The notes under the pieces are model-generated. The model had not been told where the DNA came from and searched no databases. It was given only the letters and a program-made list of their open reading frames with translations. Made by a program: the position numbers and the translations under genes. From Thermanaeromonas sp. (lineage in GTDB: Bacteria > Bacillota > DSM-521 > Neomoorellales > Neomoorellaceae), in assembly GCF_021890735.1 (NCBI RefSeq), contig NZ_JAKKUR010000011.1:1-43016 (forward strand): 43,016 nt of DNA, written 5' to 3'. This document shows, piece after piece, positions 30,215 through 42,751 of the stretch (within the stretch, counting starts at the first letter, position 1; every line of letters starts with the position of its first letter).

Positions 30215-30668
30215 ATGAAGTGGCAAAGTTTTTTTGTATTGCTTTTATTCATCCTGGTAGGGCTGGGGGCTTTTTTATCGCTGTCCTTTTCGCCACCGGC
30301 AAATGACGGCATCGCAGGGCAGCCTGGTACTGCGGCTAAGAATGAGGAGCCGGAAGGGGGCAAAGGCGCGGGTCTATTTGTGCCCCCGGAAAAGGGGTAC
30401 TGGATCGAAGTACGCGTGGCGGACCAGAAGGTGCGTATATACAAAGACGGCCAGCTCGAAAAAGAGTGGCTGGCCTCTACAGGAACGGCGGACAAGGGAT
30501 GTATACCTCTTCCACAGCCTGCCCATGGACCGTAACCAACGTATCATCCCCGAAGAAGCTGCCAAACTCGGTACCCCTGCCTCCCACGGTTGCGTCCGGT
30601 TAGAAGTGGATAACGCTAAGTGGATTTACGACTATATCCCGCCGGGTACCCCTGTTTATATTCACTGA
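30215..30668 (+). pseudogene. L,D-transpeptidase (YkuD) with internal deletion and frameshift
   Basis: The N-terminal part reads from the ATG at 30215 (AAGGGGAG upstream): a membrane anchor, a polar linker, then the start of a YkuD domain (VRVADQKVRIYKDGQLEKEW, LASTGTADK). At about 30497 the frame is lost. The rest of the domain continues in another frame (VYLFHSLPMDRN), including the active-site motif SHGCVRL and the end GTPVYIH. Compared with intact family members, roughly 30-40 residues between STGTADK and the FHS segment are missing, so this is a deletion that also shifts the frame. The product would lack cross-linking activity. A sequencing error alone would not explain the missing block. 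Confidence 0.8.
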
Positions 30669-39482: not shown

Positions 39483-39513
39483 GGCGTTGGAGAACCTCGA
39501 TTCTTTAAAGTTT

Positions 39514-39572
39514 TGGTGACCCGTGCGGGATTCGAACCCGCGTTCCCGGCTTGAAAGACCGGTGTCTTAACC
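39514..39572 (-). tRNA. Truncated tRNA-Glu(UUC): 3' part only, probable integration-site fragment
   Basis: On the minus strand the sequence has the 3' side of a tRNA-Glu D-arm (GGTTAAGACACC), an anticodon arm with loop CTTTCAA (anticodon TTC), an intact T-arm (GCGGG, TTCGAAT, CCCGC), the 3' acceptor strand ACGGGTC, a discriminator A and encoded CCA. The matching 5' acceptor strand (GACCCGT or GGCCCGT) and the 5' side of the D-stem are missing; unrelated sequence stands there. So about 59 bases of 3' end remain. tRNA-Glu lies upstream of spoIIE in Bacillus, so this is probably the ancestral site, interrupted by an element to its right. Confidence 0.7.
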
Positions 39573-39662
39573 CCAGGATTTGCCACCATGGAAGCCTTGG
39601 GATTCCTGGCTCCAAGGGATACCCTTGAAGCCTTACCCTCAGCACCACCGGATTAGCCTCTA

Positions 39663-39704
39663 TAGGTTATATTCGCCACATTTTAGGTTATATTCGCCAC
39701 ATTT
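39663..39704. repeat. Perfect 21-bp tandem repeat, two copies
   Basis: Units 39663-39683 and 39684-39704 are identical; each begins TAGGTTATATTCGCC. They lie between the tRNA-Glu remnant (90 bases away) and hicA. They could be arm-type binding sites of an integrase or the end of a mobile element; both are inference. Confidence 0.9.
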
Positions 39705-39718
39705 TCGCAAAATCCTGC

Positions 39719-39949
39719 TCAAGCAAGAAGGTTTTTGAACTCGTCAACGGTTAGTCCGGCCTGCTCCAGTATGCTTTTCAAAAGCTTTGGCTTCAGGATT
39801 TCACCGGAATGTACGGGAACAGTAACCAAGCTTCTAGCACCCGGCTTTCGCAAGTGGTGATGACTGCCCTGTATTCTCACCACCACAAAGCCAGCCCTCT
39901 TCAACGCACTAACCACTTCTTTACCTGTAACCCTCGGTAGCCTGCTCAT
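39719..39949 (-). CDS. hicA: HicA family mRNA interferase toxin
   Basis: A 76-residue type II toxin of the HicA family, with a double-stranded-RNA-binding-like fold. The signature is GKEVVSALKRAGFVVVRIQGSHHHLRKPG, of which GSHHHLRK holds the catalytic His, followed by TVPVHSGEILKPKLLKSILEQAGL. It cleaves mRNA when free. It overlaps hicB by 4 bases (ATGA), as usual for toxin-antitoxin pairs. Its stop codon lies in a 17-bp repeat that recurs beyond the cassette. Confidence 0.93.
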   Translation of the reverse strand: MSRLPRVTGKEVVSALKRAGFVVVRIQGSHHHLRKPGARSLVTVPVHSGEILKPKLLKSILEQAGLTVDEFKNLLA

Positions 39950-40176
39950 GAGGCTATCTCTACCTGCACTTCGGCTATTTCAACGTCTTTAGTAGGCAGG
40001 GGCAGACCTTCCTGGGCTAAAGCCGCAAGGTGGCCTGCTATAGCCTCTTTAGCCCTCTCCAATGCTTCTTCAACGGTATCTCCCTGGGTGAAGCACCCCG
40101 GTAAGGCAGGAACAGAAACGACATAGCCCTTACCTTCCTCATCCCATTCGAGGATAACTTTGTAGCGGTAAAGCAT
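39946..40176 (-). CDS. hicB: HicB family antitoxin
   Basis: A 76-residue protein with the HicB partial RNase H fold: YRYKVILEWDEEGKGYVVSVPALPGCFTQGDTVEEALERAKEAI, recognised by the core VPALPGCFTQGDT. It has no C-terminal DNA-binding domain, so autoregulation would need another protein. The ATG at 40176 follows AGGGGG by about 8 bases; the GTG at 40185 falls in that ribosome binding site. It is coupled to hicA and should neutralise it. Confidence 0.93.
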   Translation of the reverse strand: MLYRYKVILEWDEEGKGYVVSVPALPGCFTQGDTVEEALERAKEAIAGHLAALAQEGLPLPTKDVEIAEVQVEIAS

Positions 40177-40188
40177 CCTCTTCACCCC

Positions 40189-40392
40189 CTAACGTGAACA
40201 CTCCTTACAGCCAAAGGGTAGCGGCTCTCCATGTTTCTTCAGGCTCTCGATGTACCCTCTTATGGCGTCCTCAGCCATTGCCAAAGCTTCTTCCTTAGTT
40301 TCCCCTTGGGTGACGCAGCCCGGTAGTGCTGGTACAGAGGCGATATAACCTCCTTCTTCGGCGGGTTCGAGGTAGACAATAAAGCGGGCCAT
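40189..40392 (-). CDS. Second HicB-like protein
   Basis: A 67-residue HicB-fold protein (FIVYLEPAEEGGYIASVPALPGCVTQGETKEEAL, core VPALPGCVTQGET) just upstream of hicB, with GGAGGG 6 bases before its ATG. It shares the VPALPGC-x-TQG core with the next protein but ends differently (PLPFGCKECSR), giving two extra cysteines. It looks like a tandem duplicate or a second antitoxin with altered specificity. It is probably cotranscribed with hicB and hicA, since the gap to hicB is 12 bases. Confidence 0.85.
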   Translation of the reverse strand: MARFIVYLEPAEEGGYIASVPALPGCVTQGETKEEALAMAEDAIRGYIESLKKHGEPLPFGCKECSR

Positions 40393-40478
40393 GTTCTTCC
40401 CTCCTAAGACGCATTCCAGCCCTTACATAGTATGCCTTGGTTAAGTAAGTCTTAGCTTTTCTGTGGGCAAAATCCTGC

Positions 40479-40595
40479 TCAAGTGGAGGAGTTTTTTAAA
40501 AGGGCCTCTAGCTTTTGCCTTTGCCGCTCTTTCCGCTTATCCTCTGCTCTCCTGCTTCGGAAGCACTCTAGATTATCATTTGGCCCACAATAGCG
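40479..40595 (-). CDS. -1 frame C-terminal extension of the zinc-ribbon gene (38 aa)
   Basis: This segment is read only if ribosomes slip back one base at A_AAA_AAC (40595-40601). It begins RYCGPNDNLEC, which gives the third and fourth cysteines of a C-x2-C-x12-C-x7-C zinc site, then a basic helix (FRSRRAEDKRKERQRQKLEALLKNSST, with RRAEDKRKERQRQK at its centre) and a TGA inside the 17-bp repeat. It has no start codon or ribosome binding site of its own. It may equally be the true C-terminus of a gene broken by loss of one A. Confidence 0.6.
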   Translation of the reverse strand, partial: RYCGPNDNLECFRSRRAEDKRKERQRQKLEALLKNSST

Positions 40596-41695
40596 TTTTT
40601 TTCGTGTGCCCTGTAAGACCACCCACAACGCTCACAAATAGGCACATGCTCCTTACTCTCGTTGACCACTTGGTTAAGCTCCCACCAGAAGTAGCCAAGC
40701 CAACCGAAAACCCTTGGTATGTCCACTTGATGTCGGAACTTGGAGCAGTAGTCTGCATGGCTAAAAAGCTCTCTCAGATTTCCGGCGACTATGCCATATC
40801 TTCCTTCAATGTCCGTTAATAACGCCTCACTTCCGCAGGCTTCTAAAGTGGGTGCAATATATGCCAGTTCTAGCGTAGTCCAGCCTTGTGCGGTAAACCT
40901 GCTAGCCCAGGAAGCTATCTCGTCCAATACTCCCGGCTTCCCTTCGTTTAAGTCTTCGATACACCGCCTCATTAAAGCCTTGTGGAACATTAAATCCATA
41001 CTTCCGCCGAAGGGAAACATTTCGTTAAATGGTTCCGGCCACTGTAGCCAAACATTCAGGCTCCTATTGCCAAAACGGTCTAAAGCGGTAGGAAGCTCAG
41101 GCGACAACGGCTTCTCTTCCCAAACAACTGGCCCACATATTTCTTGGCTCTCGGTTTCCGGGCTAACCGACGGCGGAAGATGGCTTCCAGGTGGCGGCCA
41201 GGCGAAAGTAATCTTCCTCGTATTTTCATCTAGCGACACAATAGGCATAACTGGCCCTGGCTCTACCTTCAAAAGCCTTTCTTCATAACTCACCCTGTCG
41301 CCTTCAAAAACCGGCCTTGTTATCTTGATTTCTTTTAGGCCGGGCACCAAAGACACTCGGCCAACATTTAGCCACTTTCGGAAAAGACCCTCCGGTATTT
41401 TCCCCTCCCAGGACTGCGGGAGGCCTACCTCGATAGGAGGGTAGCAAAATCCCTCTTCGGTTATATGGATAACAACAATCCGGTTTATCGTTTCGCTGGG
41501 CACTGCACATTCCCAAACTCTAAACCCTCGAAAATCCCAGTACCAACGCTTGACCTCCCTTATATCAGGGAGCAGCCAAATAACAGGCTCGCCTCGCCAC
41601 TCTTTTTGTGCTCGCTGTAAATCACGGGCATAAGCGGCATTAAGGGGGCTTAGCTCGAACAGGGGAAGCCAAACCTGAACCCGCTGGCGTGGCAA
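40568..41695 (-). CDS. Unknown protein with C-terminal zinc ribbon; zero frame ends early at a slippery site
   Basis: I do not recognise the family. The zero-frame product is 375 aa from the TTG at 41695, chosen because GGGAGGT lies about 7 bases upstream; the frame is open to 41770 without a ribosome binding site. It is tryptophan-rich and soluble, with a proline-rich linker near residues 170-205 (WPPPGSHLPPSVSPE) and a C-terminal half-zinc site CERCGW near 355. The zero frame stops 9 codons after A_AAA_AAC; the -1 frame supplies two more cysteines and a basic tail (see 40479-40595), giving a product of about 405 aa. It is divergent from an XRE regulator and lies in the accessory region. Confidence 0.75.
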   Translation of the reverse strand: MPRQRVQVWLPLFELSPLNAAYARDLQRAQKEWRGEPVIWLLPDIREVKRWYWDFRGFRVWECAVPSETINRIVVIHITEEGFCYPPIEVGLPQSWEGKIPEGLFRKWLNVGRVSLVPGLKEIKITRPVFEGDRVSYEERLLKVEPGPVMPIVSLDENTRKITFAWPPPGSHLPPSVSPETESQEICGPVVWEEKPLSPELPTALDRFGNRSLNVWLQWPEPFNEMFPFGGSMDLMFHKALMRRCIEDLNEGKPGVLDEIASWASRFTAQGWTTLELAYIAPTLEACGSEALLTDIEGRYGIVAGNLRELFSHADYCSKFRHQVDIPRVFGWLGYFWWELNQVVNESKEHVPICERCGWSYRAHEKNAIVGQMII

Positions 41696-41788: not shown

Positions 41789-42034
41789 ATGGTCACTAAT
41801 CTTAGGCTTTTACGGGTGCGGAGAGGGTTGACCCTCAAAGATATGGCCGCTCAAATCGGCCTTAACGAAACCTGGTACTGCCGAATGGAGAGAGGCCAGA
41901 ACTACATTCCGCCACACTACCGCCAGAAACTGGCCGAGTTTTTTGGTGTTCCCGTCTCCGAAATCTGTGACGAAGTGACTGGTTGGCCCATACTGGTAGA
42001 CCAGCCAATGCCGAAGCTAGTGCGGAAGGCGTAG
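41789..42034 (+). CDS. XRE family transcriptional regulator
   Basis: An 81-residue protein with an N-terminal Cro/C1-type HTH (residues 3-58): LRLLRVRRGLTLKDMAAQIGLNETWYCRMERGQNYIPP, in which the helix-turn-helix LKDMAAQIGLNETWYCRMER is clear. A short tail of 20 residues follows. The ATG at 41789 has AAAGGGGGG 5 bases upstream. It is divergent from the zinc-ribbon gene and probably regulates the shared control region, as phage- and plasmid-type repressors do. Confidence 0.85.
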   Translation: MVTNLRLLRVRRGLTLKDMAAQIGLNETWYCRMERGQNYIPPHYRQKLAEFFGVPVSEICDEVTGWPILVDQPMPKLVRKA

Positions 42035-42385: not shown

Positions 42386-42751
42386 ATGAAACCTATCCCG
42401 ATAAAAGCCTACGTAGGCGGCAGGTGGGCCGTAGTGGGAAAACTCATTCCCGGCGACCCTCCGGTATTCGAGCAAAGGATAAAAGCCGACGATATCCTTC
42501 GCATTGAAGGAGCGGCGGGGGTAGACCTGCAATACGACCCAGCACTACCGGAAAATACTTTAATCCGCCACATAACACCGTGGGGGGTACTGGAGATACC
42601 TCTACCCGTATTAAAAACTCACCGAAAGGCACGTATTCGGCAGGTAGGGCCTCTTCATCCGAAAAGGATTTACCTCCCTTACCGCTATTGGCGGAACACA
42701 ACCGAGGAGCAGGAACAGCTTACATTCGCATGGGCGGGTGAGACCGTATGA
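42386..42751 (+). CDS. Protein of unknown function (121 aa), accessory region
   Basis: The ATG at 42386 follows AAAGGGGGAA by about 6 bases. The protein is basic and rich in beta-type sequence (VGGRWAVVGKLIPGDPPVF, RIEGAAGVDLQYDP, WGVLEIPLPVLKTHRK), with no membrane segment. I recognise no family. Its stop overlaps the start of the next gene (ATGA at 42748-42751), so they are translationally coupled and probably work together in the element. Confidence 0.65.
   Translation: MKPIPIKAYVGGRWAVVGKLIPGDPPVFEQRIKADDILRIEGAAGVDLQYDPALPENTLIRHITPWGVLEIPLPVLKTHRKARIRQVGPLHPKRIYLPYRYWRNTTEEQEQLTFAWAGETV

Follow-up and report, generated by a model that had tools for sequence, protein, structure and literature searches.

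Programmed -1 ribosomal frameshifting in E. coli dnaX is stimulated by a Shine-Dalgarno sequence and a hairpin, and some known programmed -1 cases do without a stimulator. The dnaX site, A_AAA_AAG, is far more shift-prone than A_AAA_AAC (PMC5009743). The latter heptamer is among the best eukaryotic sites and is inefficient in E. coli (PMC4066793; PMC5009743); IS1 elements nevertheless use it, and there the frameshift is proven and its site conserved (PMC4066793). A survey of 1106 genomes credited programmed frameshifting with 4302 of its 206,991 detected frame transitions; for singletons outside any cluster, the main causes named were errors, indels and gene overlaps (Antonov et al. 2013, PMC3711429).

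Here we analyzed a window of 43,016 nucleotides from Thermanaeromonas sp. (contig NZ_JAKKUR010000011.1), in which a zinc-ribbon gene of a mobile island changes frame at A_AAA_AAC. According to the original prediction, programmed -1 frameshifting at this heptamer makes two proteins from one gene, a 375-residue short form and a 405-residue zinc-ribbon form. Our results point instead, with good confidence, to an ordinary one-base break at or beside the run of As. The locus shares with the IS1 transposase genes the heptamer itself, a stimulator that is not established and a place in a mobile element; in IS1, however, the site is conserved, whereas the window gene is the only copy with the site and its relatives are single-frame. 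With dnaX it shares an A-rich heptamer and an upstream Shine-Dalgarno-like sequence, but the latter is a four-base AGGG at chance level and the hairpin is absent. Indel-disrupted genes with singleton transitions (PMC3711429) resemble it in having one homopolymer transition and single-frame relatives, a site that is not conserved and an orthologue in decay. It differs from them in that the break creates an exact zero-frame X_XXY_YYZ heptamer.

The two frames and the tail

The zinc-ribbon gene lies on the minus strand. Its body is a zero-frame ORF of 375 codons (40568..41695) that starts with TTG at 41695, preceded by GGGAGG, and ends with CERCGWSYRAHEKNAIVGQMII at a TAG (40570..40568). Close to this end the zero frame reads CAC GAA AAA AAC GCT ATT GTG GGC CAA ATG ATA ATC TAG, so that the heptamer (40595..40601; A7 run, 40596-40602) is in frame and the stop follows nine codons past it. 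Past the heptamer the -1 frame meets no stop until a TGA at 40479, 38 codons on, and this tail (40479..40595, minus strand; RYCGPNDNLECFRSRRAEDKRKERQRQKLEALLKNSST) brings YC and EC to join the CERC of the body. A -1 slip would give a protein of 405 residues with the junction HEKNRYCGPNDNLEC. Apart from the break both parts are open, with no second lesion in the 405 codons. Reading of the minus strand thus bore out the in-frame heptamer, both frames and both protein lengths, the completion of a four-cysteine zinc site by the tail, and the lack of a start codon of its own downstream of the heptamer. The junction peptide had been given as HEKKRYCG, which needs an extra A; a true -1 slip gives HEKNRYCG.

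Homology and the pattern of substitutions identify the tail as the genuine former C-terminus of the gene. Its end, QKLEALLKNSST and the stop, is identical to that of an unbroken zinc-ribbon gene on contig C104 of the same genome. Compared in the -1 frame with an orthologue in G006, a genome from another genus of the same family, the tail shows 5, 1 and 8 differences by codon position (small numbers with a clear direction) and 7 synonymous against 5 non-synonymous codons. The corresponding dN/dS is about 0.10, versus 0.89 in the zero frame and 3.7 in the third frame, so by this comparison the bias to synonymous change is found in the -1 frame only; the gene body has a dN/dS of 0.25. The codon usage of the short, basic tail did not favor the -1 frame. 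The earlier statement that the -1 codons look coding holds for their past, because of homology and substitutions and not because of codon usage. The openness of the -1 frame is no proof by itself, since at 16% of random codons it stays open for at least 38 codons. Programmed slippage would account for a canonical in-frame heptamer followed by a -1 tail under selection for its protein sequence; a protein-coding tail, though, is expected of a broken gene as well.

Slippage signals and their background frequency

The AGGG upstream of the heptamer had been noted as lying where such a sequence stimulates slippage in dnaX. This tetramer is present (40609..40612, minus strand; it ends 7 nt before the heptamer), but a Shine-Dalgarno-like 4-mer is expected at that distance at 16% of positions, which makes it, like the open -1 frame, unremarkable. 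RNA downstream of the heptamer folded no better than shuffled sequences (z-scores -0.66, +0.53 and +1.08). Neither a downstream structure nor an upstream Shine-Dalgarno sequence thus rises above chance as a stimulator.

The heptamer itself is a point against a broken gene: it matches the canonical pattern exactly, sits in the zero frame and falls inside a short overlap. The lack of a second lesion in either part, and the use of this heptamer by IS1 with no established stimulator (PMC4066793), count against a broken gene as well. Among the sampled ORFs (194 kb, out of 256 kb of contigs, with some spurious ORFs in the count), zero-frame A_AAA_AAC turned up about 10 times, for an expected chance of about 0.3% in an overlap of roughly 22 codons. 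By our own estimate this shifts the prior by a factor of a few, since homopolymers are indel hot spots too. A second A_AAA_AAC lies inside the tail (TTA AAA AAC), and the unbroken C104 gene also has this second heptamer, with a Shine-Dalgarno-like 4-mer, 7 codons before its stop, while its frame is unbroken.

The island and the relatives of the gene

The island adjoins spoIIE. A 62-bp 3' fragment of tRNA-Glu(UUC) (39513..39574, minus strand), identical to the whole tRNA in the same-genus genome G001, is likely its attachment site; at this place G001 has the whole tRNA-Glu and no island. Beyond the zinc-ribbon gene, on the plus strand, lie a divergent HTH regulator (41789..42034; Pfam HTH_31/HTH_3), a 121-aa gene of no family (42386..42751) and the start of a gene that runs off the contig (42748..43016). 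Searching the rest of the genome at the DNA level revealed a sister island on C104. It shares the divergent HTH gene (83% DNA identity) and the gene of 121-129 aa (77%), and the positional counterpart of the truncated gene encodes 598 aa whose weak match to a primase (AEP-TOTE) stays below cut-off. Judging by anatomy, the intact zinc-ribbon protein, with its C-terminal zinc ribbon and basic tail, was probably a nucleic-acid-binding island protein that perhaps acted with the divergent regulator.

Remnants of related loci adjoin tRNA-Gly in G003 and G008. A hicB-hicB-hicA toxin-antitoxin cassette (39707-40483), in which no transposase was found, sits between the zinc-ribbon gene and the tRNA-Glu fragment. 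It is flanked by exact 17-bp direct repeats, CTTGAGCAGGATTTTGC (40467-40483 and 39707-39723), each of which begins with the stop codon region of the preceding gene. On C104 a single copy (L044 12442-12458) is joined directly to the right flank, which makes an empty cassette site; G006 has both copies (L005 6186 and 6959). Just downstream of the right repeat on the minus strand are two tandem copies of AAAATGTGGCGAATATAACCT (39660-39706), and AAAATGTGGCGAATA also comes after the empty site on C104.

At the position of the window gene, the C104 island has a zinc-ribbon gene with a single open frame throughout. It ends in CKWCGKPFDLRGCYNKNREYCSDTCKHSAKSHRYRERQKLEALLKNSST, and its last 12 residues and stop are those of the -1 tail. 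BLASTP covered both sides of the junction in one match between the window and C104 proteins (41% over 61 positions, E 2e-6). Since the two proteins are hardly alike outside the C-terminus, sequence comparison makes the C104 gene a paralogue rather than an orthologue. It has the four cysteines in one frame, and its junction, NKNREYC (AAC AAA AAC CGG), is without a slippery run. The same is true of six distant relatives (L052, L055-L059); in L056 a stop does occur, though only past the site. Single-frame homologues with no slippery run, which the original prediction had named as evidence against itself, are thus represented by the paralogue and all six relatives.

The sole orthologue that we found, in G006, is dead. 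One extra base directly follows its start codon, a TAG interrupts the frame and 472 nt including the site are deleted, and conservation of the slippery site cannot be shown for this reason. Neither the site nor the out-of-frame arrangement is conserved in C104, the six relatives or G006. Across all 22 genomes from the order and 399 from the phylum, this pseudogene was the only orthologue; pattern scans of GTDB and IMG/VR and tblastn against phages and plasmids returned no intact orthologue with either arrangement, and a GTDB scan with the C104 paralogue gave no confirmed relatives. We dismissed as chance some weak matches in G068, G141 and G284, which were confined to residues 211-297 (E about 0.004-0.009). 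Further remnants of the tail occur at three loci (C104:116-223, G003:C75 and G008:C1). With the dead G006 orthologue, these remnants speak for relaxed selection at a locus that, on the genomes compared, decays repeatedly. Different loci (L050 4596-5700, L049 400-620 and L035 1-160) have one common 3' end, made of the last zinc-ribbon-gene codons and the hicB region (94-96% DNA identity), joined to upstream sequence that is different or truncated, as if the common end were a recombination point.

In its order of C-x2-C ... YC-x(n)-C and a basic segment, the protein is similar to CGNR-type zinc fingers (PF11706) and like C-terminal zinc ribbons; the window protein, however, had no match in Pfam or NCBIfam, and the C104 paralogue scored 10.2 bits for PF11706 against a cut-off of 24 (E 0.71), so that neither reached the curated threshold of the family. 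A PDB sequence search with the window protein gave marginal matches only (best, GATA-1 at E 0.33), and AlphaFold on the zero-frame ORF gave an unusable model (pLDDT 34).

Origin of the break

Very probably, then, the gene carries an ordinary one-base break at or beside the A7 run rather than a programmed slip. The ancestral island gene would have encoded a single protein of about 405 residues, with a zinc-ribbon-like site (C-x2-C ... C-x7-C) and then a basic segment at its end. The lost base would have lain at or right beside A7, an A if the run was once longer or a C if CC once followed it; translation would then end nine codons on, with the second cysteine pair gone, and A_AAA_AAC would be a by-product of a mutable homopolymer, not a selected signal. 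The loss appears to be recent. Because the early stop removes the second cysteine pair, the gene is probably now inactive, and we infer that its product does not work. An unbroken single-frame homologue, as expected for an indel-disrupted gene, exists as a paralogue, not an orthologue. The alternative mentioned with the original prediction, loss of an A from a run of eight, agrees with the one-base loss that we favor; the base may nevertheless be a C beside the run. A missing A would restore EKKRYC, and a missing C would give EKNRYC, nearer the NKNREYC of the paralogue. Searching reads for A8 or A5 is accordingly incomplete, since the paralogue's AAA AAC CGG (K-N-R) allows for a lost C.

This judgment of a one-base break includes the case of an error in sequencing or assembly, with the gene still whole and in one frame in the living organism. 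The homopolymer where the frame changes, 405 codons otherwise free of lesions and single-frame relatives throughout are all compatible with such an error, which we nonetheless hold to be rather unlikely. The syntenic stretch of G001 offers 36 orthologous genes (31 kb aligned) with zero homopolymer frame breaks, although several intact orthologues on the contig carry runs of 7-8 A or T; in addition, the G006 orthologue died independently. Given these unbroken genes, a real mutation is modestly likelier than an error, and we lean toward it. The single two-frame gene in this comparison, at 30326-30665, aligns with its G001 orthologue (258 aa) partly in one frame and partly in another and lacks an internal stretch; from this alignment it is probably another broken gene, through the lost stretch rather than a homopolymer.

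A homopolymer exactly at the break would also suit phase variation, in which the length of the A run varies between cells and switches the gene reversibly on and off, possibly with help from RNA polymerase slippage. Seven or eight As are, however, short for a hypermutable tract, and no such tract stands at the corresponding point in the paralogue or the relatives; we give this explanation hardly any credence.

Programmed slippage can draw on the use of A_AAA_AAC by IS1 elements (PMC4066793). Set against it are the single-frame paralogue and relatives without the run, the deletion of the site from the G006 pseudogene, the absent structure and chance-level Shine-Dalgarno sequence, and the weakness of the heptamer in E. 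coli (PMC4066793, PMC5009743). The proposal of a programmed slip that yields both proteins is thus unsupported, and programmed or useful slippage at this gene is improbable in our estimate. We think it just as improbable that the heptamer left by an indel allows a little slippage and so makes up for the lesion in part, with traces of the zinc-ribbon form being made. If that were true, the heptamer would be a recoding site like that of IS1, newly arisen and not yet conserved, and the gene would give a view of a recoding site being born. With the one-base break that we favor, the window gene can usefully serve recoding scans as a negative example: where a gene is broken, a slippery heptamer of canonical form can owe its existence to the very homopolymer that makes indels likely, and a paralogue elsewhere in the genome can tell recoding from breakage.
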